Below, in pieces: positions 11,581-50,331 of a DNA stretch of 64,000 nucleotides. Each line of letters starts with the position of its first letter. Position 1 is the stretch's first letter. The position numbers were made by a program, and so were the translations under genes. The DNA is from Coleofasciculaceae cyanobacterium (GTDB lineage Bacteria; Cyanobacteriota; Cyanobacteriia; Cyanobacteriales; Xenococcaceae). The stretch lies in the NCBI GenBank assembly GCA_036703275.1, contig DATNPK010000084.1, positions 1-64,000 on the forward strand, in the 5' to 3' direction. A model generated the notes under the pieces. That model searched no databases. It saw nothing but the letters and a program-made list of their open reading frames with translations, and was not told the DNA's origin.

Positions 11581-13650
11581 TTAGCGTTTATGCTGAACTG
11601 GAACGATCGCGCTATATTCAAAATTGTTTAAACTGGGTTGAACCAAAAAATAATTTTGTTGGCTTAATTTAATGTTGTCTGACTCACAGTTTGCTTTAGG
11701 GGAGTAATAAGTTAGCACATATTCTTGACCAATTAATAATTCTGTTTCTGTCTCTACTTCTCCTTGCCACTGAGTCTTGGTTACTAAAATAACTAATTGA
11801 TTGGCTAGTTGAGGAATCGCTTTGGCTACCTGTCTACGGTAAATTTGGTCTAAGCTACCGAAGGGGGAGTCCATGACGATGGGAAAAGTGCTGCTATCGT
11901 AACCCATAAGAGTATTGCGCTGACTCCATTGTCTCACTCGGTCGATAATGCCCCCGATAAACGACAGGCTTAAGATTTGGTTTTCTCCTGTAGAGGCTGC
12001 AACAGGTGCTTCTACCCCTAATGTATTTTCCACCAAGGTTAATTTATAATCACTACTGAGCTTTGGAATATAAGGAGTAAAAGAAATAAAGCTAAATATT
12101 TCCTGGACTTTTTGTTCTAAAGTTAGGCGAAACTGCTGTTCTAGACGTGTTCTAACTTCGTTTAATCGGTCGATCGCATCCTGCGCTACCTGGATTCGCT
12201 TTTGAGTCAGCTTTTGTTTGCTTTCAGTTAGCTGATGTCGCGCTATGGTTTGACTTAATTTATCTAGCTGTGTCGAGCGATCGCTTTTTTGCTGCTGATT
12301 TTCTCCCTGTTCTAAAATTAAGTTTTTTAACTCATCTTCAATTGCCTCTATGTTCTGCTGTAGCTGTTGAGTATTTTGATTGGGATAGCTTTTTAGCTGC
12401 CTATTAGCTTGTTCTATCTCTGCTTCGATACGGTTGAGTTCAAGATAATGATGCTTAATTTCTACTTGCTGTTGGTCTAGCTGTTGCCAAAAATTAGCTG
12501 ACTCTACTTCAATTTTGCTTACCTGTGTCTCTAAACGAATGGCTGACTCCTCAACGTTTTTAATTTCAACTTTTTTGAGCCAAGACTTAACTTGGTTGTA
12601 GGATTCAGTATCGGGGTTTAAAGCTTCGCCACAAAGACAGCGTTGCTGTGATAATAGTTGTTGAATAAACTCTTGCTTGAGTCCGCTGGAAAGTTGGTTG
12701 CGATCGCGTAATGTTTGTAGTAGACCTAAGAAATTATCAGCTATAGCTGGCAGAAAAATTAGGTGGCTATCGTTCGACAGTAGTTTCTTGAGCTTATTTT
12801 TGCTTTGGAGCAAATCTTTTTTGAGTGACTTGTGCTGTTTGAGCAGTTTAATTTTTAGCTGTTGAATCTCATCTGCACCACTAATCTCTAGTAGCTGTTG
12901 CGAGAAATTCGCTTTTTTCTGTTCTAACTGAGTTACTTGAGCGACAATTTTGGCAATACGTTGGTTGATGGCTTCACGCTCTTGCTCTAAATTAATTTGT
13001 TTTCTCAATAACTGTTTAGTTTGAGCATCTCCAAGTTCTTCTAACTCTTCTTGTAAAGTTCTCCGAGCTTTCTTTAAATGCTCGATCGCTCGATCTAAAA
13101 TCTTAACTCCCAGCAATTCTTTAGTATCGTCGGCGATATTAGAATTATGATTCTGGCGAAAAAAACCATCAATTCTTTCCCCATCAAAGAAAAAATATTG
13201 ATGCAGACTGGCAGGTAAAATGCGATTAATAATATCTTCGGGAGGCTCAAGGGGTGGATACCATCGTCCATCGTCTCCTGCAACCAACATAAATAACTTA
13301 GTCTGGCTATACTGCACCTGATGCTGAGAGTCTTTGTTAGCGTAACACTTGCGCTTTAGCTGATAGAGTTTGCGATCGCGCTCAAACTGTAGCTCTACCC
13401 AGCATTCCACACCCCGTTCAGCCTGAGCTTCCGTAACAGCTCGCTGATTAATTAATAGTTCTGGAGAAGCAAAAGCTGCCGTAAACTTTTCGTAGAGTAC
13501 CCAGGTAAAAGCATTGAGAATCGAAGTTTTACCTGCACCGTTATTGCCATAGATAACTGTCGTGTTGCGATCTCCGCTAGCAAATTTAATCTGAGGAGTT
13601 TTGCCGTAAAACTGTCTAAAATTACACAGTTGCAGATAATTTAATTTCAT
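11581..13650 (-). CDS. DndD-like SMC/Rad50-type ATPase
   Basis: 689 aa. N-terminal AAA/ABC half: LQLCNFRQFYGKTP, then Walker A GNNGAGKTS at about 35-43, and YFFFDGERID, a motif shared with DndD. Long coiled coils fill about 190-530, interrupted by a hook-like turn with a CLCGEALNP motif (two cysteines) as in Rad50/DndD. The C-terminal half has the ABC signature region STGENQILSLSFIGG and Walker B IVMDSPFGSLD. DndD is the ATPase of phosphorothioate DNA modification, but DndA, DndB, DndC and DndE are not adjacent. It is translationally coupled (ATGA) to the small gene upstream. The actual role may be a separate DNA-repair or defence function. Confidence 0.82.
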   Translation of the reverse strand: MKLNYLQLCNFRQFYGKTPQIKFASGDRNTTVIYGNNGAGKTSILNAFTWVLYEKFTAAFASPELLINQRAVTEAQAERGVECWVELQFERDRKLYQLKRKCYANKDSQHQVQYSQTKLFMLVAGDDGRWYPPLEPPEDIINRILPASLHQYFFFDGERIDGFFRQNHNSNIADDTKELLGVKILDRAIEHLKKARRTLQEELEELGDAQTKQLLRKQINLEQEREAINQRIAKIVAQVTQLEQKKANFSQQLLEISGADEIQQLKIKLLKQHKSLKKDLLQSKNKLKKLLSNDSHLIFLPAIADNFLGLLQTLRDRNQLSSGLKQEFIQQLLSQQRCLCGEALNPDTESYNQVKSWLKKVEIKNVEESAIRLETQVSKIEVESANFWQQLDQQQVEIKHHYLELNRIEAEIEQANRQLKSYPNQNTQQLQQNIEAIEDELKNLILEQGENQQQKSDRSTQLDKLSQTIARHQLTESKQKLTQKRIQVAQDAIDRLNEVRTRLEQQFRLTLEQKVQEIFSFISFTPYIPKLSSDYKLTLVENTLGVEAPVAASTGENQILSLSFIGGIIDRVRQWSQRNTLMGYDSSTFPIVMDSPFGSLDQIYRRQVAKAIPQLANQLVILVTKTQWQGEVETETELLIGQEYVLTYYSPKANCESDNIKLSQQNYFLVQPSLNNFEYSAIVPVQHKR

Positions 13651-34583: not shown

Positions 34584-34656
34584 GCCAGGATAGCTCAGGT
34601 GGTAGAGCAGAGGACTGAAAATCCTCGTGTCGGCAGTTCAAGTCTGCCTCCCGGCA
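34584..34656 (+). tRNA. trnF: tRNA-Phe (GAA)
   Basis: 73 nt. Acceptor GCCAGGA, D-arm TAGCTCAGGTGGTAGAGCA, anticodon arm GAGGACTGAAAATCCTC with anticodon GAA, T-arm GGCAGTTCAAGTCTGCC and discriminator A656. CCA is not encoded. The 3' acceptor strand is TCCCGGC, giving an A4/C69 mismatch where relatives (from memory) have a T. The D-arm/anticodon segment 34605-34623 is the protospacer of the CAST homing crRNA, with GGTA directly 5'. A transposon end begins 10 bp after the gene. Confidence 0.95.
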
Positions 34657-34666
34657 TTTACTGTAC

Positions 34667-34790
34667 TGTACAGTGACTAATTATTTGTCGTTGGAGACAG
34701 ATTACTGTCATCATGACCAATTACTTGTCGCAAAGACTAATTACTGTCCGCCAATGAGGTGGTGACAAATTCCTGTCATCAACTGATTTT
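34667..34790. mobile_element. type V-K CAST transposon end with TnsB-type sites
   Basis: Begins TGTACAGTGAC at 34667, the terminal sequence I recall for V-K CAST ends. Five related units follow, each a GAC-xAATTA-x-TGTC-like block: GTGACTAATTATTTGTC, GAGACAGATTACTGTC, ATGACCAATTACTTGTC, AGACTAATTACTGTC and GTGACAAATTCCTGTC. They are spaced like TnsB binding sites. The end lies 62 bp from the PAM in tRNA-Phe. Whether it is the formal left or right end is unresolved; it is the end next to the CRISPR RNAs. The matching other end is not found in the window. Confidence 0.88.
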
Positions 34791-34814
34791 TTTCATTGTA
34801 TGTTTGTTTCAGAA

Positions 34815-34842
34815 GATTTTCAGTCCTCTGCTCCTTTCAATC
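34815..34842 (-). CRISPR. delocalised homing repeat-spacer unit targeting tRNA-Phe
   Basis: On the minus strand, GATTGAAAG (34842-34834, the 3' end of a V-K repeat) is followed by the spacer GAGCAGAGGACTGAAAATC (34833-34815). All 19 bases match 34605-34623 of the tRNA-Phe gene. The next bases differ. The protospacer is preceded by GGTA, which fits the NGTN PAM of Cas12k. Only the repeat tail is conserved, as described for delocalised homing crRNAs of V-K CASTs. Confidence 0.88.
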
Positions 34843-34911
34843 GTTCCTTAATTTTGAAGATTATCTATCTCGATTTAAAAATCACACTAAAAAATTCTTA
34901 TAGTTTTTTTG

Positions 34912-34999
34912 CTTTCAACCTATTTTGAACCTAACTAGCGAGCAAATGCGCCATAGTGTATCCTTTCAATCCATCTCCGCCTGAAATGGTCTTGGCAAC
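34912..34999 (-). CRISPR. degenerate V-K CRISPR mini-array (one full and one partial repeat)
   Basis: A 37-nt repeat occupies 34963-34999. Read on the minus strand it begins GTTGCCAAGACCAT and ends GATGGATTGAAAG, and it aligns along its length with V-K repeats of the GTTTCAAC...GGTTGAAAG type. A 33-nt spacer follows (34930-34962), then a partial repeat with the tail TTCAAAATAGGTTGAAAG (34912-34929). The GATGGATT tail pairs with AATCTATC in the 3' end of the tracrRNA. A possible further decayed repeat lies near 35125-35155. The spacer's target is unknown. Confidence 0.75.
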
Positions 35000-35194
35000 T
35001 TTATAAGCTACAAGTTCTTTGTAAAAGCAATTTCAGAGTAAATTTTGCTGAAGCTAAAAAATTAAGTTTATTTAAACTCTTAAATTATAGCTGTAACTAA
35101 ACTACAAAAGCTTACAAAGCCCAACTCAGTTAGATTTCAACAGTTTGTTGAACCCCCTAGGGATTTCGCCCACGCTTAGGTTCGACAAAAAAGG

Positions 35195-35425
35195 AAAATT
35201 AGGATAGATTCCTCCTTGCTCGGAGGTGATTCAGTAGCGATCGCTGTAGTACATCTACACCACTTATTACTGGGGGCGCACCTTATTCCTATCCGAAGAT
35301 AGCAGTTTTAGGGTGGACAGCTACCAGGGTCAGAAAGCATCCATCCAGAAGATGGTAAAACTAACCCATACTTAACATAGTTCAGAGGTTCAGAAGAACA
35401 TAACCTACGGCGCAATTTGTCGAAC
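35195..35425 (-). ncRNA. type V-K tracrRNA
   Basis: Downstream of cas12k on the same strand. Blocks shared with the V-K tracrRNA family, recognised from memory: GCGCCG near the 5' end, CCTCTGAA, GGGTTAGTTT, the strongly conserved CTTTCTGACCCTGGTAGCTG, GGTGCGCCCCCAG, GATGTACT, and the terminal hairpin CACCTCCGAGCAAGGAGG. The 3' anti-repeat AATCTATCC (35210-35202) can pair with the repeat tail GATGGATT. A T-rich stretch (TTTTCCTTTTTTG) follows. Ends are approximate. Confidence 0.88.
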
Positions 35426-35493
35426 ATTATATTTAGTTTTCGAGGTTCTAATTCTGTTTATGCAAGAATCGTTACACAAAGATATTGAGAACT

Positions 35494-37353
35494 TTAGTAC
35501 CCATCAATAGCAATTTTTTTAGCAAGTTCAGTCGGACTTCCTCTGATTGATTGTTTACCTTCTTTTATTTTTATTCCTGCTTTTGCTGCTTGAGATTTGA
35601 TATTATCAATCAGCCTGCCATAGCTCCATTGATGAATATTAGTTCGGTATTTTTTGGCATATTTTTTTTGTTTTTCGATACATCCAGGAATTTTGGCTTC
35701 TGCCTTTGCTTGAACTTCTGCTTGAATAATATCTCTTTTATTTTTAATTCTGGGTACGACAATACATCCTGCTCTATATTCTTTAGCTAATTTAATGACC
35801 GCTTTAGCTAAAAGGCGATCGATATATTGTCCTAGTTCTGATTCGCCAAATCTATTATCCGCATGATGTCTCTGAGCAACATTTCTTTTGTGAGCTAAAA
35901 AATGCTTTTGCTGCCGTTGGCGATTGAGTAAGCGATAGTCTTTCCCTAATAATTGTTTAGTACTGCGATATGTAATTGCTTTACTGGTTTTACCATCAAC
36001 TATGGCTACAGTAGCAGGTTTTTCCAACTGAATTGCTACTCCCAAGAGAATATTAGTTTGACCTTGATATAGAGGTTTATGTGGAAGAGAATAGGAATTA
36101 TTGATTCGGTCAAGAGATGTTTTAGTTTTTTTGACTAAAGCTTGTTGTTTAGGATTAAGATTTTCTTGTTCAAGATCCTGCAAAGTTTCGTGAAATGTCT
36201 CGGCTTTCTTCTGGCGAATTAAATCCGATCCTTCCGTAGTTAAAAGCAACGTATCAACAAAGCAATGTAGAGTTAGATGATTAACATTCCAAGGTTTACC
36301 TTTATCGTTGCCTTCTTTCCATATCATCCTTGACGATCGCAAGGCTAATAATGCACCCGAATGAGTATTATTGCTTTGTTTTTTTAGCTCTTGCTCGTCA
36401 TAGAAAAGTTGAAATAGTGAAAGCTGTCGCTTGTCGCAGTAAATTTGAAAGCAATGCTTACCAATATACTTTTCCAATCCATTAAATTTCACAATCAAAC
36501 GATCTTTTTCATTTTTGCCCCACTTTGTATCCTCATTGGATAAGAAGTTAACAGGATAAGGAACTGATTTCGATTGAGTCAGTAATATATCTTGCCAAAG
36601 TTTCGCCTGAGCATCATCTTGAGGAACATAGGTTGAAGCGATCGCGAGAGTATCCAACCATTTTTGTCCTGTTAAATCTCTTCCTTGCGGTGCTTTCCCA
36701 TTTAGTTTCTTTGTTAATCTTTCGATCCTAATTTCTACCTTACGACGGCGTTTAGCAAATTTTTCAGGATCTTCTAGCTTTTGACGTACTTTACAACCGT
36801 TTTTCAGCAGATGAACGATCGCACAGCGAACCCAAACATCTTCGGAATCATCATACAGAGCGAATAACTGGCTATGAGTGCTTTTATACTCATCAGGCTT
36901 GAGATTATAAATAATCTCAGTTGCCTTACCTTTGATATCTTCTAAAGAACGATCTTGAAAAGATCTGCTTCCCAGACTGTATTCTTGGAAAAGTTCATCA
37001 TCACTTTTTAGCATTGCTAGCCAACGTTCTTGTCCTCTTAATTCATAAGTCCAACCTTTACGTACCTTTAGCCACGATTTATAGACAAAATCCACCATTG
37101 CGATCGCCGAACTATAAAATCGCCCTGGCTGATTTTTATATTTTGGATGTTCTTTCAAAGGTTGACAAAGATTTTTAACAAGTCCTCTTGGTAGTTTTCC
37201 TTTTTGTTTCCATATTTCAAGATCTGGGTGTTCTGCAAGTTGTTTGAACAATTCGTTGATTAACGGAGTATTTTTCTCCGCCATTAATAGCCAGAGCTTA
37301 TGACGAATATCTTCTGGTGCAGTTAAACGGCATTGAATAGTAATTTCAGTCAT
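35494..37353 (-). CDS. cas12k: Cas12k, nuclease-dead RNA-guided targeting protein of a V-K CAST
   Basis: 619 aa, nearly the full length of known Cas12k (about 640). N terminus MTEITIQCRLTAPE with LMAEKNTPLINELFKQL, then RFYSSAIAMVDFVYKSWL, KFAKRRRKVEIRIERLTKKL (about 198-217), NNSYSLPHKPLYQGQT (about 418-433), LLGVAIQLEKPATVAIVDG in RuvC-I position (about 436-454) without the catalytic Asp of active Cas12, SELGQYIDRLLAKA (505-518), and the end GKQSIRGSPTELAKK. It binds crRNA plus tracrRNA and directs TnsC/TnsB/TniQ insertion. It seems about 10 residues short at the C terminus relative to ShCas12k. tnsB, tnsC and tniQ are not seen. Divergent from the MerR-type gene. Confidence 0.97.
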   Translation of the reverse strand: MTEITIQCRLTAPEDIRHKLWLLMAEKNTPLINELFKQLAEHPDLEIWKQKGKLPRGLVKNLCQPLKEHPKYKNQPGRFYSSAIAMVDFVYKSWLKVRKGWTYELRGQERWLAMLKSDDELFQEYSLGSRSFQDRSLEDIKGKATEIIYNLKPDEYKSTHSQLFALYDDSEDVWVRCAIVHLLKNGCKVRQKLEDPEKFAKRRRKVEIRIERLTKKLNGKAPQGRDLTGQKWLDTLAIASTYVPQDDAQAKLWQDILLTQSKSVPYPVNFLSNEDTKWGKNEKDRLIVKFNGLEKYIGKHCFQIYCDKRQLSLFQLFYDEQELKKQSNNTHSGALLALRSSRMIWKEGNDKGKPWNVNHLTLHCFVDTLLLTTEGSDLIRQKKAETFHETLQDLEQENLNPKQQALVKKTKTSLDRINNSYSLPHKPLYQGQTNILLGVAIQLEKPATVAIVDGKTSKAITYRSTKQLLGKDYRLLNRQRQQKHFLAHKRNVAQRHHADNRFGESELGQYIDRLLAKAVIKLAKEYRAGCIVVPRIKNKRDIIQAEVQAKAEAKIPGCIEKQKKYAKKYRTNIHQWSYGRLIDNIKSQAAKAGIKIKEGKQSIRGSPTELAKKIAIDGY

Positions 37354-37444
37354 AAATTAAAACTACTATTAAAAACACAATATGTGCTTATTAACTTAAT
37401 ATTTTTATATATATAGCTCTTTCTCCGTGGCATCATTATTAGAT

Positions 37445-37930
37445 ATGAAAGAGCGTTTTTACAGTAGTACAGAAGCATCAAAAATTACTGGCTGCTCTCG
37501 CCGACAATTACAGTATTGGCGAAAGCAGGGTGTTGTCGTGCCGACGGTTAATCCTGGTGGCAAAGGGAGAAATGTTTATTACACAGAATCAGATTTATTG
37601 GTTTTGTCAGTTATGGAGTATTTGCTGTCACTAGGATTAAATTTCGAGATTTCTCTAAAAGTTTTAGAAATTCTTAGAAATAAAGATATGTGGTTTTTAG
37701 ATAAATCTTGGACGAGAAAAAAAAACAACCGCTTAATGCTTATATTAAGTGGGCAAGAAGAAAATACAATTCAATTAACAGATTTCGATCTTGAATTAGC
37801 TATAGACAAATTAAACGAAGGTTGTGCAGTTGCTCCTTTCTGGCGCGGTCGCATTTATGCAAAATTACAAAATAATCTTCAAAATTTTTTTCATGAAAGA
37901 AATAGATTTGATCGCGAGAGAAAAAATTAA
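37445..37930 (+). CDS. cvkR: MerR-type repressor, CvkR family
   Basis: 161 aa from ATG 37445; a GTG at 37427 would add six residues. An N-terminal winged helix of MerR type reads FYSSTEASKITGCSRRQLQYWRKQGV, with wing GGKGRNVYYTESDLLVLSVMEYL. The C-terminal part (from about 75) is helical and lacks the metal-binding cysteines of classical MerR proteins. Divergent from cas12k across about 90 bp, the arrangement described for CvkR, which represses cas12k and the tracrRNA region in V-K CASTs. AT-rich palindromic stretches in that gap are candidate operators. Confidence 0.88.
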   Translation: MKERFYSSTEASKITGCSRRQLQYWRKQGVVVPTVNPGGKGRNVYYTESDLLVLSVMEYLLSLGLNFEISLKVLEILRNKDMWFLDKSWTRKKNNRLMLILSGQEENTIQLTDFDLELAIDKLNEGCAVAPFWRGRIYAKLQNNLQNFFHERNRFDRERKN

Positions 37931-38114
37931 AAATAAATTTTAAAAGGGAAATAAAGTAATCAACTCTAAATTCTCTCGTTGAATGCGATCTCGTTGTTGT
38001 TCTGGAAAATCGTGAACTGAAACATTGCAGAAAATACCTATATTGGCTTTTTATCAAAAATTTACGATTATATTGGATTTATTGGAATTACTTCGATCAC
38101 TTGCTGGTTTTAAG

Positions 38115-40466
38115 ATGAATAAAAAGCACCTCTCGGAACGGGATATTTGTACAAAATTTATTACTCCTGCGTTAGAGAGAGCGGGCTGGAATGTGCAAAC
38201 CCAGATTCGAGAGGAGTTTTCTTTGACAAAGGGGCGAATTATCGTTCGGGGGAAGCTACACACCAGGGGTAAAAATAAACGGGCGGATTATGTGCTGTTT
38301 TATAAACCCAATATTGCGATCGCGGTACTGGAAGCGAAAGATAATAATCATTCTGTTGGGGATGGGATGCAACAGGCTTTAGAGTATGCGGATTTATTGC
38401 AAGTACCGTTTGTTTTTAGTTCCAATGGCGATCGCTTATTGTTTCATAACAAGATTAATACCGACGGAGTTATCGAACGGGAAATTGAATTTGAGGCAAT
38501 GCCGTCACCAGAGACTTTATGGCGGTTATGGTCGCAACATCAGGGTTTAACGGAAGCACAACAGGAAATTGTAACTCAGGATTACTATAGCGATGGGAGT
38601 AATAAAACACCTCGCTACTATCAGCTTTTGGCAATTAATAAAACCATCGAAACAATTGCTAAAGGACAAAATCGGATTCTGTTAGTGATGGCGACGGGGA
38701 CGGGTAAAACCTTTACAGCATTTCAAATTATTTGGCGGTTGTGGAAGTCACGGACGAAAAAGCGGATTTTATTTTTGGCAGACCGCAATATTTTAGTAGA
38801 CCAAACCATGACCAATGATTTTAAACCGTTTGGTTCGGCAATGACCAAAATTCAGAAGCGAGTGGATAAGTCCTATGAAATCTACCTCTGTTTGTATCAA
38901 GCGGTGACGGGTTCTGAAGAGGAAAAAAATATTTATAAACAGTTTAGTCCTGACTTTTTCGATCTGATTGTCATAGATGAGTGTCATCGAGGAAGTGCAG
39001 CAGAAGATTCAGCTTGGCAGGAAATTTTAGAATATTTCACTTCAGCAACTCAAATCGGCTTAACGGCGACTCCCAAGGAAACTAAGGAAATTTCTAACAT
39101 CGATTATTTTGGCGAACCGATTTACACTTATTCCCTACGTCAAGGGATTGATGATGGTTTCTTAGCCCCTTATAAGGTAGTGCGGCTCGATCTCGATCGC
39201 GATTTATCGGGTTGGCGACCGAATAAAGGTCAAAGGGATAAGTATGGCAATGAGATTGAGGATCGGATTTATAATCAGAAGGATTTCGATCGCTCTTTAG
39301 TACTGGAAAAGCGGACGGAGTTAGTCGCCCAAAAAGTTACGGAATTTCTCAAGCAAACCAACCGTTTTGATAAAGCGATCGTTTTTTGCGAAAATATCGA
39401 CCACGCGGAAAGAATGCGACAGGCTTTAGCTAATGCCAATAGCGATTTAGTTGCCGAAAATTCTAAGTACGTAATGCGGATTACGGGAGATAATCCAGAG
39501 GGGAAAGCGGAACTGGACAATTTTATTTTTCCTGAGAGTGTTTATCCCGTCATTGCTACTACCTCAAAGTTAATGACCACAGGAGTAGATGCTAAAACCT
39601 GTAAGTTAATTGTGCTGGATCAAAGGATTCAGTCAATGACCGAGTTTAAACAAATTATCGGTCGAGGAACACGCATTGATGAGGATTATGACAAGTTTTT
39701 CTTCACCATTATAGATTTTAAAAAGGCAACAGAACTGTTTGCCGACCCCGATTTTGATGGCGATCCAGTTCAGATTTACGAACCCAAACTTGATGATTCC
39801 CCCGTACCACCCGATGAGGTTCAATCCCCCGAAACTAAGAGCAAAAGCGATTGCGTAAAAGAACCAACCTCTTGGGGTGATTGGGATACAGAAGATGATG
39901 ACCAGCCTAAACGTTATGTAGTTGCCGATGTGGAAGTAAAAGTTTCTTTGGAACGGGTGCAATATTATGATGCGGATGGTAAGTTGATTACAGAATCCCT
40001 GAAAGACTATACTCGCAAAGCGGTCAATCAAGAATTTGCTTCCTTAAATGATTTTTTACGGCGTTGGAGTGATGCAGATAAAAAACAAGCGATAATTGCT
40101 GAATTAGCTACTGAAGGAGTATTTTTTGAGGAATTGGCGCAAGAAGTAGGACGGGATTGCGATCCCTTTGATTTGATCTGTCATATCGTCTGGGATGTAC
40201 CACCCTTAACCCGCAGAGAACGGGCGAGGGAAGTGATAAAACGCAACTATTTCACTAAGTATGGTGAGAAAGCCTGTAGGGTACTAGATGCTTTACTGGA
40301 CAAGTATGCTGATGAGGGAATTGAAGCGGTAGAAGAACCCCAGATTTTAAAAATTGCCCCTTTTACCGAGATGGGAACACCAATGGAACTGGTGCAAGCT
40401 TTTGGCGGTATCCAAGGTTATCAAGAGGCGGTTCGGGAATTGCAAAGGGAACTTTACAGGGCATAA
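38115..40466 (+). CDS. hsdR: type I restriction enzyme R subunit (HsdR)
   Basis: 783 aa from ATG 38115; the frame is open to 38025 but the extension is unlike the family. The N-terminal nuclease domain has the PD-(D/E)XK strand [14 protein letters not shown] after [13 protein letters not shown]2 translocase: Walker [19 protein letters not shown]-box variant [10 protein letters not shown], motif III GLTATP, and motif [12 protein letters not shown]. The C-terminal helical domain is about 640-783. It cuts DNA after translocation by the HsdR-HsdM-HsdS complex. First gene of the hsd set, 185 bp after cvkR, same strand. Confidence 0.95.
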
Positions 40467-40507
40467 TGGTTTAGTCTTTTATATTTTTCTGAGGATTATT
40501 GATAATT

Positions 40508-41947
40508 ATGGCGATCGCAACGTTGGTAAAAAGCATTCAAGACATCATGCGGAAGGATGTGGGTGTGGATGGTGATGCCCAACGGATTAGCCAGTTGGTT
40601 TGGTTGCTATTTCTCAAGATTTTTGATGATAAAGAGCAGGAATGGCAATTTATGGTGACTGGTTATAAATCGCCTTTAGAAGAGAGTTTGCGGTGGTCAA
40701 ATTGGGCAAAAAATCCCGAAGGAATCACGGGGGATGAGTTAATCGATTTTGTGAATAATCGGCTTTTTCCCACTCTCAAGGGTTTAGCAACGGCTGCGGG
40801 GGTTTCCAATCAGGGTAAGGTGATCGGTTCGGTGTTTGAGGATGCCTATAACTACATGAAATCGGGGACTTTACTCCGTCAGGTGATTAATACCATCGAA
40901 ACGGATGTGGATTTTAATTCATCGAGCGATCGCCATTTATTTAATGATATTTACGAAAAAATTCTGGCGGATTTACAATCTGCTGGTAATGCGGGGGAAT
41001 ATTATACCCCTCGTGCGGTGACGCAATTTATGGTGGATATTCTCAATCCCAAGTTAGGGGAAAGTATACTCGATCCTGCTTGTGGTACTGGTGGTTTTTT
41101 AACCTGTGCGATCGAGCATTTGAGGAAACAAGTCAGTAATGCCGATGATGAAAATTTACTGCAAGCAACTATTCATGGAGTTGAAAAGAAGCCTTTACCC
41201 CATATGTTGGCAATGACCAATATGATGTTACATGGCATCGATGTACCGACCAACATCCGTCACGATAATACTTTAAGTCGTCCTCTACGGGATTATAGTC
41301 CAGCCGAAAGAGTAGATATTATTGTGACTAATCCACCGTTTGGGGGGATGGAAGAGGATGGCATTGAAAATAATTTTCCCAAGAAATATCAAACCAGGGA
41401 AACGGCAGATTTATTTATGGGTTTGATCATGCACCTGTTGAAAAAAAATGGGGGGCGAGGTGCGGTGGTGTTACCCGATGGTTTTTTGTTTGGGGAAGGA
41501 GTGAAAACCAATCTTAAAAAGGAACTTTTAGAGAATTTTAACCTCCATACCATCGTCCGTTTACCGAAGGGGGTTTTTAGTCCCTATACAAGTATTTCGA
41601 CGAATATTTTATTTTTTGAAAAGGGTAACAAGACTGAAAGTATTTGGTTTTTTGAACATCCCTATCCAGAGGGTTATAAATCCTATTCTCGGTCTAAACC
41701 CCTAACCATTCAAGAATTCGATCGCGAGAAAGCTTGGTGGAACAAGCGTCAGGTTAATGAGTATGCTTGGCAGGTTTCCACACAGGAGATTGTTGCCCGT
41801 AACTATAATTTAGATTGTAAAAATCCCCATGAGGTAGAGATCGATCGCGGAGATCCGATGGAATTAATGGCGGAATTTTTAGAGATTTCCCAGCAGGTGG
41901 AGATTCAGGATTCTCTAAAAGCTGAATTAATGGAAGCGTTGGAATAA
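40508..41947 (+). CDS. hsdM: type I DNA methyltransferase M subunit (HsdM)
   Basis: 479 aa from ATG 40508; a TTG at 40499 is an alternative. N-terminal HsdM helical domain (RISQLVWLLFLKIFDDKE), then the N6-adenine methyltransferase fold: NAGEYYTPRAVTQFMVDIL, SAM motif I LDPACGTGGFLTC, and catalytic motif IV VTNPPFGGMEED. The rest of the fold ends with FSPYTSISTNILFFEKG. A complete, normal-length subunit. It lies 41 bp after hsdR. Confidence 0.95.
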   Translation: MAIATLVKSIQDIMRKDVGVDGDAQRISQLVWLLFLKIFDDKEQEWQFMVTGYKSPLEESLRWSNWAKNPEGITGDELIDFVNNRLFPTLKGLATAAGVSNQGKVIGSVFEDAYNYMKSGTLLRQVINTIETDVDFNSSSDRHLFNDIYEKILADLQSAGNAGEYYTPRAVTQFMVDILNPKLGESILDPACGTGGFLTCAIEHLRKQVSNADDENLLQATIHGVEKKPLPHMLAMTNMMLHGIDVPTNIRHDNTLSRPLRDYSPAERVDIIVTNPPFGGMEEDGIENNFPKKYQTRETADLFMGLIMHLLKKNGGRGAVVLPDGFLFGEGVKTNLKKELLENFNLHTIVRLPKGVFSPYTSISTNILFFEKGNKTESIWFFEHPYPEGYKSYSRSKPLTIQEFDREKAWWNKRQVNEYAWQVSTQEIVARNYNLDCKNPHEVEIDRGDPMELMAEFLEISQQVEIQDSLKAELMEALE

Positions 41948-42056
41948 TAAAATGTTGGTTTTTCAGTTACAAATATGCTAAATAATTAATTTTTAAAGTA
42001 AAAAATAAGGGGTGGATGGTGCGGAATATGCTAATTTAGCTTGAGGTTAATAAACT

Positions 42057-42350
42057 ATGAAAAGTTTAGAGGAAATAACCCAACTTTTACAGGTAAATCA
42101 AAAGTATTTACGGGAAAGGTTTCGAGTTTCCCAGATGCAAGTTTTTGGTTCTTATGCTAGGGGTGAACAAACAATTAATAGTGATGTAGATATTTTGATT
42201 CGTTACGATCGCCCACCAACACTTTGGATGTTAGGTGAATTACGGGATTATTTAACTGAAGTTTTGGGGGTGCGTGTGGATATCGTGACGGAAAAAGGTC
42301 TTAAGCCAAGGATTCGAGAGCGGGTTTTGGCAGAAGCGGTTAAGGTATGA
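42057..42350 (+). CDS. mntA: MNT-type nucleotidyltransferase, antitoxin of an MntA/HepT pair
   Basis: 97 aa. Minimal nucleotidyltransferase fold with the active-site motif FGSYARGEQTINSDVDILI (about 32-50), with Gly-Ser and two metal-binding Asp residues, and VRVDIVTEKGLKPRI with the third acidic residue. In known pairs MntA adds AMP to HepT and neutralises it. The stop overlaps the next start by 4 bp (ATGA). Placed between hsdM and hsdS, an unusual insertion point for a restriction operon. Confidence 0.9.
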   Translation: MKSLEEITQLLQVNQKYLRERFRVSQMQVFGSYARGEQTINSDVDILIRYDRPPTLWMLGELRDYLTEVLGVRVDIVTEKGLKPRIRERVLAEAVKV

Positions 42351-42691
42351 CAAAAAGAGATTTAATCGATTTTTTAGAAGATATTCTGGAAGCCATAGCC
42401 GAAATTAATAGTTTTGTTAAAGGTGTTGGTTTTGAAGAATTTGCGAATAATCGAGAAAAGACTTTGGCTGTGGTTAAGTTATTGGAAATAATTGGTGAGG
42501 CACCAAAAAAAATCCCCTCTGATTTACGCGAAAAGTATCCCGATATTCCTTGGCGTGCTGTAGCAGGAATGCGCGATCTTTTAGTACATGAATATTGGCA
42601 GGTTGATACGGAGGTTGTTTGGCAGACGGTGAACGAATCTCTGCCTTTATTAGCCAGGGTGATTGCTGAAATGATTCAAGATAATCGATGA
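42347..42691 (+). CDS. hepT: HepT-like ribonuclease toxin (DUF86)
   Basis: 114 aa HEPN-fold protein. The catalytic RX4HXY motif reads RDLLVHEYW (about 86-94), with LEIIGEAPKKIPSDLREKYPDIPW and RAVAGM before it, typical of DUF86. The motif is intact, so it should be an active RNase when unmodified. Start ATG overlaps the mntA stop; its own stop overlaps an ATG in front of hsdS. Confidence 0.9.
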   Translation: MTKRDLIDFLEDILEAIAEINSFVKGVGFEEFANNREKTLAVVKLLEIIGEAPKKIPSDLREKYPDIPWRAVAGMRDLLVHEYWQVDTEVVWQTVNESLPLLARVIAEMIQDNR

Positions 42692-42711
42692 GAGGGGCGA
42701 TAATTTTTTTG

Positions 42712-44187
42712 ATGAAAACCGTAGAACTGTTAGATAAGTATTTTGAAACCGCTTTTGCTGCACCAGATGGGATTAAACGCTTACGAGAATTAATTTTAAC
42801 TTTGGCGATGCAGGGTAAACTCGTACCGCAAAATCCCCAAGATCGCCCCGCAAGTGAACTTTTAAAAGAGATTGAAGCGGAAAAGAAACGGTTAATAAAA
42901 GAGGGAAAGATTAAAAAGTCTAAGCCTTTACCTGAGATTACACCTGATGAAATTCCCTATGATTTGCCTGATAGTTGGGAATGGGTTAGGTTAGGAAATT
43001 TAATAGAGTTAATTTCTGGACAACATTTAACTCCAAATGAATATAACGAAAATAGAATCGGTTTTCCTTACTATACTGGTCCATCAGATTTTGGTATTAA
43101 AAATCCAGTAACTACTCGATGGACAACTATTGATAGAGCTATTGCAATTCAAGGCGATATTTTATTGGGAGTAAAAGGAAGTGTTGGTAAAATTAATCTA
43201 TTTTTAGAAAAAAAAGCTGCTATTGGTCGTCAGTTAATGGCATTGCGGAGCATCAAAATTGACAGAAATTTTTTGATGTACTTTCTAGAAGGAAAATTTG
43301 AAGAGCTTAAAAATTTATCTGTAGGTATTGCTATTCCTGGAATTGGAAGACAAGACGTATTAACACGATATTTTCCACTTCCACCACTTGAAGAACAGCA
43401 CCGAATAGTAGAGAAAATCGATCGCCTGATGGAATAAGTCGATCGCCTGGAAAAACTACAAACAGAACGCGATCGCAAACGTTTAATTATTCACGCAGCA
43501 GCAAGCGATCGCGTTTTAAATGCACCAGATAAAAATAGTTTTAATGATGCTTGGAATTTTATCCAAAATAACTTTAATGAACTCTATTCAGTCAAAGAAA
43601 ATATCAGCGAACTCCGCAAAGCAATCCTACAACTCGCCGTAATGGGTAAACTCGTCCCTCAAAACCCCAACGATCCACCTGCAAGTGAATTACTCAAGGA
43701 AATTGAAGCAGAAAGGAGAGAATTAATTAAAGAAGGCAAAATCCCAAAACCTAAACAAGTTGAGCCAATAAAAACAGAAGAAATACCTTATTTATTGCCT
43801 AATCACTGGATATGGACAAAGGTAAAACTTATTTGTGCTGTCATCGTAGACTGTCCTCACTCAACACCTATATTTATACCTGAAGGATTATTGTGCATTG
43901 ATACTAACAGTTTTAAAGCAGGATCTTTTGTTGAGCATAAATTTAGATATGTTTCCGAAAAAACTTATTTAGATAGAGTTAAACGACTTGTACCTCAAGA
44001 AAATGATATTGTTTTTGCAAGAGAAGGTAGTATCGGTGAGTCTGTCATTATTCCTCCAAAAATGCAGTGCTGTTTAGGACAAAGAGTTATGCTTTTTCGT
44101 CCAATGCAAAAAATATTTCCCAAGTATCTACAACTGCATAATTATCGCTACAAGTTCATATCTAGTTTAGAAGCAATTAGCAAATGA
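42712..44187 (+). pseudogene. hsdS: hsdS specificity subunit, interrupted by a stop and truncated
   Basis: The first target-recognition domain runs from MKTVELLDKYFETAFAAPDG through a conserved linker region LAMQGKLVPQNPQDRPASELL to PLPPLEEQHRIVEKIDRLME. A TAA at 43435-43437 then interrupts the frame, which continues without a shift (VDRLEKLQTERDRKRLI) into the second half. The second half repeats the linker motif (VMGKLVPQNPNDPPASELL) and has target-recognition domain 2 up to YLQLHNYRYKFISSLEAISK, then stops at 44187. The expected second central and C-terminal conserved helix is missing. So there are two defects: a nonsense codon and a 3' loss. The first half alone could act as a half-S subunit that dimerises. 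Confidence 0.85.
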
Positions 44188-44198
44188 ACTAGAAAAAT

Positions 44199-44393
44199 AT
44201 GTTAAGCGAAATTAAAGCAGAAATAATTCAACTCGCCAGTAATACCACTTTTGCTCGAAATTTAGCTTTAACATTGATTGTGGCGAGCGCTGGTATATGT
44301 AGTCTTGCCGAACTACAGAGCCAAAATACTCAAGCAGCCGAACAAGCATCGATTATCTTTGAGCCAAACTCAAGCAAAATAATTATTGATTGA
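44199..44393 (+). CDS. small protein with a hydrophobic segment, unknown
   Basis: 64 aa. MLSEIKAEIIQLASNTTFARN is followed by a hydrophobic run (LALTLIVASAGIC), then a polar Gln/Ala-rich tail. It could be a small exported or membrane-anchored protein. It starts just 12 bp after the truncated hsdS frame, so it may mark the far edge of the accessory region. I recognise no family. Confidence 0.45.
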   Translation: MLSEIKAEIIQLASNTTFARNLALTLIVASAGICSLAELQSQNTQAAEQASIIFEPNSSKIIID

Positions 44394-47504: not shown

Positions 47505-50331
47505 GTGCGACTCGTTTAGTGCGAAAGTACTATTTTTAGTACATAACCACTAGCATGGTACGACCAAGTGTTAAGTTTTTAACAATTTTTAACAGGTCAA
47601 CTGAACCATGACAACTAAATATTCCGTATAGGTGAAATGTTCCTCATTAGAGGTAGCTAAATAATAATAAAAGCAAAATACATTAAGCCCTATCTCTCAG
47701 GTGTTGGAGATGAAAGCGTAACCCCTGCGGTAGAGAATGGTCATCAATCCGCAAAGCGGGGTTAAACGGGGTAATTACTGGTAGTCTGAACTGGTAATCC
47801 TAAGTGCAAGAACTCTATGGATAGAGCGTTCGCTCGAAGTATCACAACCATCGTTATATAGAAACGGCTAAATCAGTACTGACAAGCCGTAGCCAAAAGG
47901 CAAAATCGCAAATGTTAATCATAAATAATTTAGTTATGATTCAATACCAACCGCGATCGGTGGAAAGATAAAGTCGTAAGCACCGTTACGCCTAAGCAGC
48001 CAAATCAGGTCTGACAGGCTGCAACTAAAATAAGTAAACCTACGCTAAGTTTCCCTTATTCTGCCACAGATAAAGGACAATACCAACAAAGTAGGCGGTG
48101 TATAGACACATCCTAAAGATCCATACCAACGGAATATTTGGAACGAGAAAACCCTCCTATGACACTCAGTAATGGTCGAAATTACTGAGAAATCAACCAA
48201 GATGAAACCTCTCCTAATTATTAGGAGGTTATAGGAGGAGCAGGATTCAGCAAAAAGCTAATGCCCTAACTCGAAAACGAGTAACGCTGGCGACAGATGG
48301 TGTAATACCAGGGATATGCCCACGTGCTGACTGTAATTAGGAAGGTAAAGAACAAGTAGGAGTATATATGGCTAATACAGATTCTAAAACGGGGTTTATA
48401 AAAGGGCAAATCAAATTCGCCCCACAACCCCTTCCGAATACTGTGGCATGGAACGAAATAAATTGGCGTAAAGCCGAATTATCAGTGTACAAGCTCCAAA
48501 AGCGCATTTACCAAGCCAGCAAAACTGACAATGTAAGAAAGTTACGTAGGTTACAAAAAACCCTCTTAAACTCATATAATGCCAAATTGTTAGCGGTCAG
48601 GAAGGTAAGCCAGGATAATAAAGGATAAAAAAACGGCTGGAATAGATGGCATCAAGTCATTGACTCCCAAGCAAAGATACGTCCTAGTCAAAAACCTAAA
48701 GCTAGAGGAAAAAGCCAAACCTGTACGCAGAGTATGGATACCAAAAGCAAATGGTCAAAAGCGTCCTCTTGGCATACCTACCATGAAAGACAGAGCATTA
48801 CAAGCGTTGCTTAAAGCAGCATTAGAACCAGAATGGGAAGCCCGTTTTGAAAATAATTCTTACGGATTTAGACCAGGAAGGAGCTGCCACGACGCAATTT
48901 CCAGCATCTTTAACCAAATTAGATATCAATCTAAATTCGTACTAGATGCCGACATAAGCAAATGCTTTGACCGCATAAACCACGTCAAACTTCTAGAAAA
49001 AGTTAACACTTTCCCGAAAGCAAGAAAACAAATTAGAGCATGGCTAAAAGGTGGAGTTCTAGATGAAGGAAAAACTATTTTCCCCACAGAAGGAAGTCCA
49101 CAGGGTGGAGTCATAAGCCCACTCTTAGCCAATATCGCCCTACACGGAATGGAATTAAGAATAAAAGAATATGCTGCCACCTGGAAAGGAACTAAAAAGG
49201 ATAATATCTATTCCTTAGCCCTGATTAGGTACGCAGATGATTTCCTAATACTTCATAAAGACCTGAACGTAATAAAAACTTGCAAAGGAATCATAGAAGA
49301 ATGGTTAAAAGATGTCGGACTAGAACTCAATCAAGAAAAAACCAAAATATTAAACACTCTTTCAGAACACGAAGGAAGTAAACCAGGGTTTAACTTCTTA
49401 GGTTTTAACATCCGACAATATCCAGTAGGAAAACACCAATCTGGAAAAAACACAATAGGCAAAATACTGGGATTCAAAACGATTATTAAGCCATCAAAGG
49501 AAAAAGTTAACGAACATTACCGTAAACTGGCAGAAATAGTAGACAAACACAAAGCTGTTCATCAGCACGTGCTAATCGCTAAACTTACTCCCATCATTAA
49601 TGGATGGTGTAATTATTACAGAACGGTATGCAGCAAAGACACTTATAGTAGTGTAAATAGTCTGGTAGTTCACAAATTACTGAGATGGGGATATCGTAGA
49701 CATCCCAATAAGGGAAAAAAATGGACTGTAAATAAATATTGGTTAACAGTTGGAGGAGATAATTGGGTATTTGGATGTAAAAAAGATGGAATAAAATTCT
49801 TACTTCCTAAACATTCAAAAACAAGAATCATCCGCCATACTAAAGTCAAAAGCGAGTCCAGCCCGTATGACGGTGACATAGTATATTGGGGAACAAGAAT
49901 GGGTAGACACCCAGAACTCAAAACCTCAATAGCTAGGTTACTAAAGAAACAGAAAGGGATATGTAATCACTGCGGACTAACTTTCAAACCTGGAGATATT
50001 ATCGAAAACGACCATGTGATTGCCCTTCAAGCTGGAGGCAAAAATGAACAAGATAATCTTCAGGCAATACATAATCACTGTCACGATGCTAAGACCAATA
50101 GGGATTTATTAGCTATCAAGCGATATAAAAACCGAAAAGGTTGGGAAAAATTCTACAAAATTTTCCAGGCACAATTTATAGATTGTAACTGGATGTGGAA
50201 TGACGATCTACCTACAGAGGTCTGAAGGTACACATAACAAGTGCCTAATTAGAGAGAAGCCGTGTGAAGCGAAAGTTTCATGCACGGTTTTGAAGACGAG
50301 TCGCCTCGGTGACGAGGTGGCTTAGTTTAAC
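47505..50331 (+). mobile_element. group II intron encoding a reverse transcriptase
   Basis: The 5' end GTGCG at 47505 opens a long structured leader of domain I-III type. The RT/maturase reading frame (48368-50225) lies in domain IV. Domain V is recognisable at about 50255-50297: AGAAGCCGTGTGAAGCGAAAG, then CATGCACGGTT. Domain VI follows (CGCCTCGGTGACGAGGTGG), and the 3' end is near 50330 (TTTAAC). Total about 2.8 kb. It lies between folC and ndhH, roughly 140 bp before ndhH. Exact ends need a homolog comparison. Confidence 0.9.
48368..50225 (+). pseudogene. ltrA: group II intron reverse transcriptase/maturase, frameshifted
   Basis: The N-terminal part (48368-48628, start MANTDSKTGFIKGQ, then AWNEINWRKAELSVYKLQ) runs into TAA at 48626-48628, right where the family reads KKTAGIDGIKS. 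That text resumes one base out of register just after an A7 run (48630-48636), so a single-base insertion (most simply the T of GGATAAAAAAA) has split the gene. The rest, to 50225, is intact: RT domain with YGFRPGRSCHDAI and the catalytic RYADDFLIL, thumb/maturase with NGWCNYYRTV, and HNH domain CNHCGLTFKPGDIIENDHV and NHCHDAK. With full-length protein broken, self-mobility is doubtful. The intron RNA may still splice with help from a related protein elsewhere. Confidence 0.88.

Follow-up and report, generated by a model that had tools for sequence, protein, structure and literature searches.

A tRNA-Phe gene in the DNA analysed here (64,000 nucleotides, hereafter the window, which comprises positions 1-64000 of contig C84 in a 5.6-Mb genome of 116 contigs) is flanked by the left part of a type V-K CAST of the ShCAST/AnCAST kind. 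The reading that best accounts for the data, to which we assign a probability of about 0.93, is that this element homed to the tRNA gene via its own delocalised crRNA and was later split inside hsdS. Cas12k, together with the tracrRNA and an anchor guide of 17-19 nt, would have bound the protospacer beside GGTA, TniQ and TnsC would have connected the bound Cas12k to TnsB, and TnsB would have placed the left end (LE) 62 bp downstream of the PAM, past the tRNA-Phe gene, leaving the tRNA whole. A reciprocal chromosomal rearrangement with a locus here called X, most simply an inversion, would later have broken the element inside hsdS, such that the half with the guide, Cas12k and the regulator remained at tRNA-Phe, while the tniQ-tnsC-tnsB half with the right end (RE) came to lie elsewhere. 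The available parts of PMC9938897 and PMC11406308 describe V-K transposition in the same terms, with binding by Cas12k-tracrRNA-crRNA, assembly of TnsC and TniQ, and insertion by TnsB at a fixed offset that leaves the target gene intact; V-K elements have no TnsA and transpose replicatively, according to excerpts of PMC11406308. The locus offers a clean natural case of RNA-guided homing and what would be a clear case of CAST decay, by a rearrangement that cut within the restriction cargo and by a stop in the transposase. Feature coordinates are collected in Table 1.

Table 1 Features of the element and its attachment site (window coordinates unless another contig is named).
Feature	Position	Strand	Basis or remark
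tRNA-Phe (GAA), attachment gene	34584-34656	+	ARAGORN; Rfam RF00005
PAM GGTA (NGTN), inside tRNA-Phe	34601-34604	+	sequence
Protospacer in tRNA-Phe, 19 nt	34605-34623	+	identical to anchor spacer
TGTAC directly before LE	34662-34666	+	target duplication or scar of older end
LE: TGTACAGTGAC terminus and four GACnnATT..GTC-type repeats	34667-34790	+	
Anchor spacer GAGCAGAGGACTGAAAATC	34815-34833	-	delocalised guide inside element
Truncated repeat R* ending ATTGAAAG	34834-34846	-	outer limit approximate
Putative degenerate repeat (GTTCAAAATAGGTTGAAAG)	34912-34930	-	from TTGAAAG end
Full-length 37-nt CRISPR repeat, single	34963-34999	-	resembles repeats of relative G005 (L151)
Region expected to hold tracrRNA	35140-35460	-	from position; layout as in excerpts of PMC9938897
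cas12k, 619 aa, frame open	35494-37353	-	NCBIfam NF038191, E 1.5e-253
CvkR-box-like site, 15 bp, upstream of cas12k	37374-37388		one mismatch to AnnACATnATGTnnT
cvkR-type MerR regulator	37427-37930	+	divergent from cas12k
Cargo: type I restriction-modification (hsdR, hsdM, HepT-like, hsdS1)	38025-43437	+	
hsdS2 N-terminal part, cut off	43642-44135	+	C-terminal counterpart on C76
Probable rearrangement breakpoint, approximate	44135-44200		locus X (folC side) follows
hsdS C-terminal part matching hsdS2	L005 16309-16560 (G000:C76)	-	

Attachment site, guide and left half

The sequence-only reading from which the analysis started had taken GGTA within tRNA-Phe for an NGTN PAM, followed directly by a 19-nt protospacer. 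Both proposals were borne out by the sequence: GTN is the PAM given for V-K CASTs in the available text of PMC9938897, and the protospacer is identical over 19 nt to a spacer on the minus strand. The 17-mer GAGCAGAGGACTGAAAA has two copies in the window, on the plus strand at 34605 and on the minus strand at 34817-34833, and the match between tRNA and guide extends from there to 19 nt, as compared to the 17 that are usual among the V-K CASTs described in PMC9938897 (as excerpted). In 1000 Markov-1 resamplings, the longest exact match between the tRNA and the left-end side reached a maximum of 12 (mean 7.6), and since 19 was observed, a chance match of guide and tRNA is excluded. The transposon end TGTACAGTGAC was found where it had been placed, at 34667, just past the tRNA-Phe gene and 62 bp from the PAM, with a further TGTAC starting 5 bp earlier (34662). 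We also considered 34662 as the true LE start (57 bp; flanks TTTAC/TTTAT, equal at 4/5 positions), a candidate that was not adopted because RE begins directly with TGTACAGTGAC. Guide, PAM, target and end had been claimed to lie within 300 bp and can indeed all be read inside about 235 bp. The distance of 62 bp lies within the 46-82 nt reported from PAM to LE, with one exception, in the accessible portions of PMC9938897.

LE begins with TGTACAGTGACTAATTA, for which the 5.6-Mb genome has only two mismatch-free sites, this one and C76:20800, where RE lies; four further sites carry two mismatches. A terminus of 17 nt is common to LE and RE. Both are TGTACA-type ends with repeated TnsB-like sites, and the pattern used recovers four repeats in LE and only one in RE. 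The GACnnATT..GTC-type repeats of LE are probable TnsB sites, as judged from their sequence. An alignment of LE with that of the relative G005 shows 74% identity over 179 columns. Inside LE follow the delocalised truncated repeat and an anchor spacer that matches the attachment gene beside a GT PAM. For the tracrRNA, the Rfam scan of the window at gathering score returned none; the expected region is spanned by a stretch (35144-36272) that is 78% conserved with G005, and its anti-repeat shows an exact match of 7 nt only.

The Cas12k of the window matches that of ShCAST (PDB) with E 4.3e-206 and is the single Cas12k match in the whole genome. The divergent MerR regulator matches Alr3614/CvkR (7xn2) with E 1.6e-48, and a site resembling the 15-bp CvkR box motif, known from the available parts of PMC9938897, lies between the two genes. 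Cas12k, a CvkR-type regulator and restriction cargo in the published layout identify the left end of a type V-K CAST.

ShCAST (Scytonema hofmanni) has core proteins that are homologous to those described here over most of their length. It inserts 60-66 bp from its PAM, a range that includes the 62 bp seen here, and its ends are of the same TGTACA type. Its attachment gene and cargo differ from those of the present element, which is broken. Homing of Tn7-Cas12k elements to tRNA genes by means of a truncated repeat-spacer was reportedly described by Hsieh and Peters 2021 and by Saito et al. 2021, and what is seen here is the same phenomenon, with no difference in principle. Such homing is presented as established in the excerpted text of PMC9938897, where the anchor spacer of cyanobacterial V-K CASTs usually targets the flanking tRNA gene. 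AnCAST (Anabaena sp. PCC 7120) and the other V-K CASTs in those excerpts share with our element the tRNA facing LE, the R*-anchor unit, the array and cas12k, as well as the divergent CvkR with its box, the cargo and tniQ, tnsC and tnsB at the far end. The element here differs from them in being in two pieces, in carrying a stop in tnsB and in retaining about one full repeat. The arrangement of guide, PAM and end at tRNA-Phe is thus the norm for V-K CASTs and represents documented homing. The RNA-guided homing that the sequence-only reading had proposed is accordingly supported, with guide, PAM, distance and element type all in agreement with V-K homing as published in the consulted parts of PMC9938897.

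Right half on a second contig and the apparent break in hsdS

None of the 19 window proteins scanned is a tns gene product. Across the genome, TnsC-type (TniB) matches lie on contigs C76 and C71, a long frame at C84:5733 gives a further, weak match, and TniQ is matched once on C76 and twice on C71. From RE inward, C76 carries tnsB, tnsC and tniQ, followed on the other strand by a C-terminal part of hsdS; no gene was seen between RE and tnsB, and an exact CvkR box precedes tnsB (L005 13022-13036). As compared to the ShCAST proteins in the PDB, TnsC (E 7.8e-113; below 300 aa), the C-terminal part of TnsB (E 1.1e-155) and a short TniQ (E 1.1e-85) are all of the ShCAST type. The tnsB gene consists of two frames separated by one in-frame TGA (L005 13060-13638 and 13660-14757). 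A search with PF08722 (TnsA) gave no match in this genome and likewise none in any control genome. The 8.7-kb contig C71 (L002) holds a different Tn7-like set, namely a TnsB-like C-terminal part, a 331-aa TnsC-like protein and two TniQ-like proteins.

The two halves break inside hsdS. Both types of hsdS part, the N-terminal one at the end of the window half and the C-terminal one on C76, sit in one hsdS gene in the relative G020 (L164 8552-9507), and in a sister CAST at tRNA-Gly in G020 the same order of cargo continues past hsdS into tniQ and tnsC without a break, this CAST being itself decayed (hsdR and hsdM gapped, tnsC truncated, tnsB unmatched). Where hsdS2 stops, near 44135, similarity to one side of the chromosomal locus X (the folC side, as found in G001) starts, and on C76 the hsdS fragment gives way, near L005 16577, to the opposite side of X. 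In G012, the closest relative, the two sides directly adjoin each other (C23:115890/115891), and in G003, G004 and G006 they are at most 1 kb apart, with a shorter stretch in agreement in G001; in 9/14 relatives they are apart or on different contigs. A Myxosarcina MAG (L185) has the G012 arrangement at X as well, with alignment figures that do not differ from those of G012; the two are probably one genome, and L185 was not counted as a second witness. A reciprocal exchange between hsdS and X explains both joints, and the element appears to have been cut in two by such a rearrangement, each half being joined to one side of X. Beyond the break, directly upstream of ndhH, the window contains a group II intron (48660-50331) that is matched in Rfam and encodes a reverse transcriptase/maturase with an HNH-like C-terminal part.

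As the contigs are unjoined, the split is a reading of a 116-contig assembly, and it should be considered whether the CAST is in fact whole at tRNA-Phe, with hsdS reads mis-joined to X twice. The number of contigs, the short stretches that hsdS1 and hsdS2 have in common and the discontinuity of X in 9 of the 14 relatives would all be compatible with such an artefact, but it needs two reciprocal mis-joins. Moreover, searches with the junction regions in this genome (best 20-40 candidates scored for each) found, besides the regions themselves, only stretches of 80 bp and 99 bp in hsdS1 (both 76%), and because no repeat was found that reaches either joint, we disfavour misassembly and regard it as improbable.

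A further consideration is whether LE with the guide at tRNA-Phe and the right half on C76 derive from two CAST copies, the missing halves of which were lost separately. This would fit the unequal 5-bp flanks of LE and RE and the presence of more than one Cas12k locus in several relatives. Against it, the genome has one Cas12k and two exact ends, and the broken hsdS pieces are complementary and lie within one gene in G020. Beyond RE, C76 also carries a copy of the tRNA-Phe 3' portion and the former downstream flank: the flank, recognised in G012, lies at C76:1111-952, 19.7 kb beyond RE (72.6% over 179 columns, part of which are tRNA), and it follows a 52-bp direct repeat of the tRNA-Phe 3' part (98%) at G000:C76:1060-1111 (L050). 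An origin from two copies is thus as hard to credit as an assembly artefact. Similar 3' fragments of tRNA-Phe occur in several relatives, as left by elements that integrate into tRNA-Phe. Ten reading frames from the 19.7 kb past RE were scanned against Pfam, and no integrase was detected; these frames comprise metabolic genes, a PemK-like toxin, an IS240-type DDE domain, DUFs and two without a match.

In the preferred reading of a single element split by rearrangement, a continuous element with an open tnsB frame is therefore not what the genome contains. Since LE and RE lie on separate contigs and tnsB is interrupted by a TGA, the element has probably lost its mobility. Given this in-frame stop and the split, the label of a fossil, which had been given to the locus from the window alone, is apt.

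Relatives and the wider survey

Among named relatives, FolC is closest to that of a Myxosarcina MAG (90% identity), followed by Pleurocapsa and other Pleurocapsales (76-79%). A single-protein search with Cas12k in the named genome collection was also tried and gave no relatives. We compared the tRNA-Phe loci of 12 relatives, 7 of which have no Cas12k match (G002, G003, G006, G008, G009, G012 and G013). Conservation of 34667-34790 in such strains would speak against a CAST insertion; none of the seven carries this LE, G013 not being a clean case. With 34667-34838 as the query, blastn found nothing just past tRNA-Phe in these seven, and in four of them it yielded only the 22-bp match of guide and tRNA; in G012 there is an additional match of 15 bp about 0.4 kb upstream of tRNA-Phe. 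In G012, homology to the window ends at 34659; in G013, the alignment of the flank reaches 34686 and an end-like TGTACTGTACATTTAATAATG stretch follows tRNA-Phe.

Among the relatives with Cas12k, G005 has the same LE and anchor at the same tRNA-Phe, with Cas12k in two pieces. In G007 and G020, tRNA-Phe is flanked by a different V-K family with a TGTACATTAAAG end, the same 17-nt anchor and fragments of Cas12k. G004 has a TGTACATTAAAG-type end; the 600 bp examined there contain no anchor, and its only Cas12k fragment is weak and lies on a different contig. These loci bear on whether the end reached tRNA-Phe by another route, through a tyrosine-integrase element or an untargeted TnsB insertion, with the guide match being incidental; the 52-bp repeat beyond RE and the half-tRNA copies in relatives do suggest other integrating elements at tRNA-Phe, but guide and PAM recur in G005 at almost the same spacing, another V-K family shares the target and guide in G007 and G020, and chance is excluded by resampling, so that we give this route next to no weight.

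The genome of G020 carries two Cas12k copies (G020:C1:3559763 and 4970308) of equal score and length, both of which match the profile only from position 39. The restriction cargo of G020 L164 (C1:4968000-4986000) is 87-94% identical to window 38025-44135 in the four longest DNA blocks, and the Cas12k proteins of the G020 tRNA-Gly CAST and the window CAST are 58% identical. Judged from these identities, exchange between CASTs at different tRNAs (Gly, Phe) seems to be faster for cargo than for the core.

A match to Cas12k was found in 99/388 genomes at the class level. From the first 58 Cas12k matches listed, 39 loci were picked, not at random, and supplemented with the present genome (G000) and G005, with up to 8 kb of sequence 3' of Cas12k taken for each (three loci were shortened by contig ends). 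An anchor was defined as 17 nt with at most two mismatches, after a GAAAG-like end and with a GT PAM on the opposite strand. Such an anchor was present in 36/41 V-K loci, i.e. 34/39 of the others in addition to G000 and G005, and was not found in L130, L134, L136, L138 (short) and L144. The same-strand control, from which matches that themselves follow a GAAAG-like end were omitted, and the shuffled control each gave 0/41. In 22 of the 34 survey loci, a TGTRCA end was present at a distance of 43-66 bp from the PAM (motif within 160 bp), and the remaining 12 have ends outside the TGTRCA motif used. The survey loci of G083 and G032 have a tRNA-Phe gene, and their spacer is identical or one letter off.

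Flanks of the element and a probable earlier occupation of tRNA-Phe

A 5-bp target duplication had been expected around the element and was not seen, as TGTAC precedes LE and TTTAT follows RE. The missing duplication could stem from an adjacent deletion by the replicative transposase. Taking the TGTAC before LE as proof, by itself, of an older CAST end was rejected, since in G173 it is an ordinary 5-bp duplication present on both sides, with no recognisable older end beyond.

Directly outside RE, CRISPR repeats were found (L005 12640-12800). The full repeat among them (12689-12725) agrees with the repeats of the TGTACATTAAAG-ended family, hereafter family B, at 34/37 positions in G007 and 33/37 in G020, as compared to 21/37 for the repeat of the element itself and 24 for that of G005 in the TGTACAGTGAC-ended family, hereafter family A; the background is at most 21/37 (window and L040, both strands). 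With up to three mismatches, the pattern of this repeat has one occurrence in the present genome, two in each of G005, G007 and G020, and none in G012. That these repeats belong to a host array elsewhere was considered and is disfavoured, because the pattern occurs only once in this genome. The family-B copies of G005 (C567, L272) are in a left end with TGTACATTAAAG and the anchor GAGCAGAGGACTGAAAA. Apart from one mismatch and two single gaps, the 41 alignment columns beside RE match this stretch of G005, and the first base of RE is exactly where the alignment ends. Most of it is repeat, and its non-repeat part is an exact match of 13 nt with a score of 26, the best of 200 shuffles scoring 27; as this match alone does not beat every shuffle, the case for an earlier occupant rests on position.

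If the sequence outside the RE of family A is a piece of family B (repeats and the stretch from the array to R*), then A stands where the left end of B was, and the tRNA-Phe site was probably occupied before by a family-B CAST. Families A and B share an identical 17-nt guide and differ in their repeat. As each insertion leaves the tRNA target whole, the same tRNA-Phe may be occupied repeatedly, and we regard it as rather likely, from the sequences compared, that the two families homed in turn to this one gene. In G005, an intact tRNA-Phe is flanked by A, and a displaced half tRNA-Phe by B together with its guide and array. The evidence for successive use of one tRNA by two V-K families that share a guide bears on whether target immunity limits CASTs in nature; if serial homing is true, the succession of CASTs can be read from tRNA genes, and a site is not protected by target immunity against another CAST. 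In the open-licence literature, as far as its available text goes, we found no report of a V-K CAST split by rearrangement or of one tRNA occupied successively by two V-K families.

Two further loci are of note here. At G005:C567 (L272 194-700), the left end, anchor guide and array of the second V-K family lie beside half a tRNA-Phe that is without a PAM and not called by ARAGORN. This arrangement suggests that an integrase-type element restored the tRNA at another place and took the CAST along with the old 3' half. The more distant genome G301, which belongs to the same order, has a V-K CAST inserted within an older end at a tRNA-like target (C3, L267 at about 3180, and L122): TGTACATT precedes the new LE and ACATTCGCACATTAAATG comes after RE, with a 5-bp ACATT duplication and about 35 bp of the older end left.
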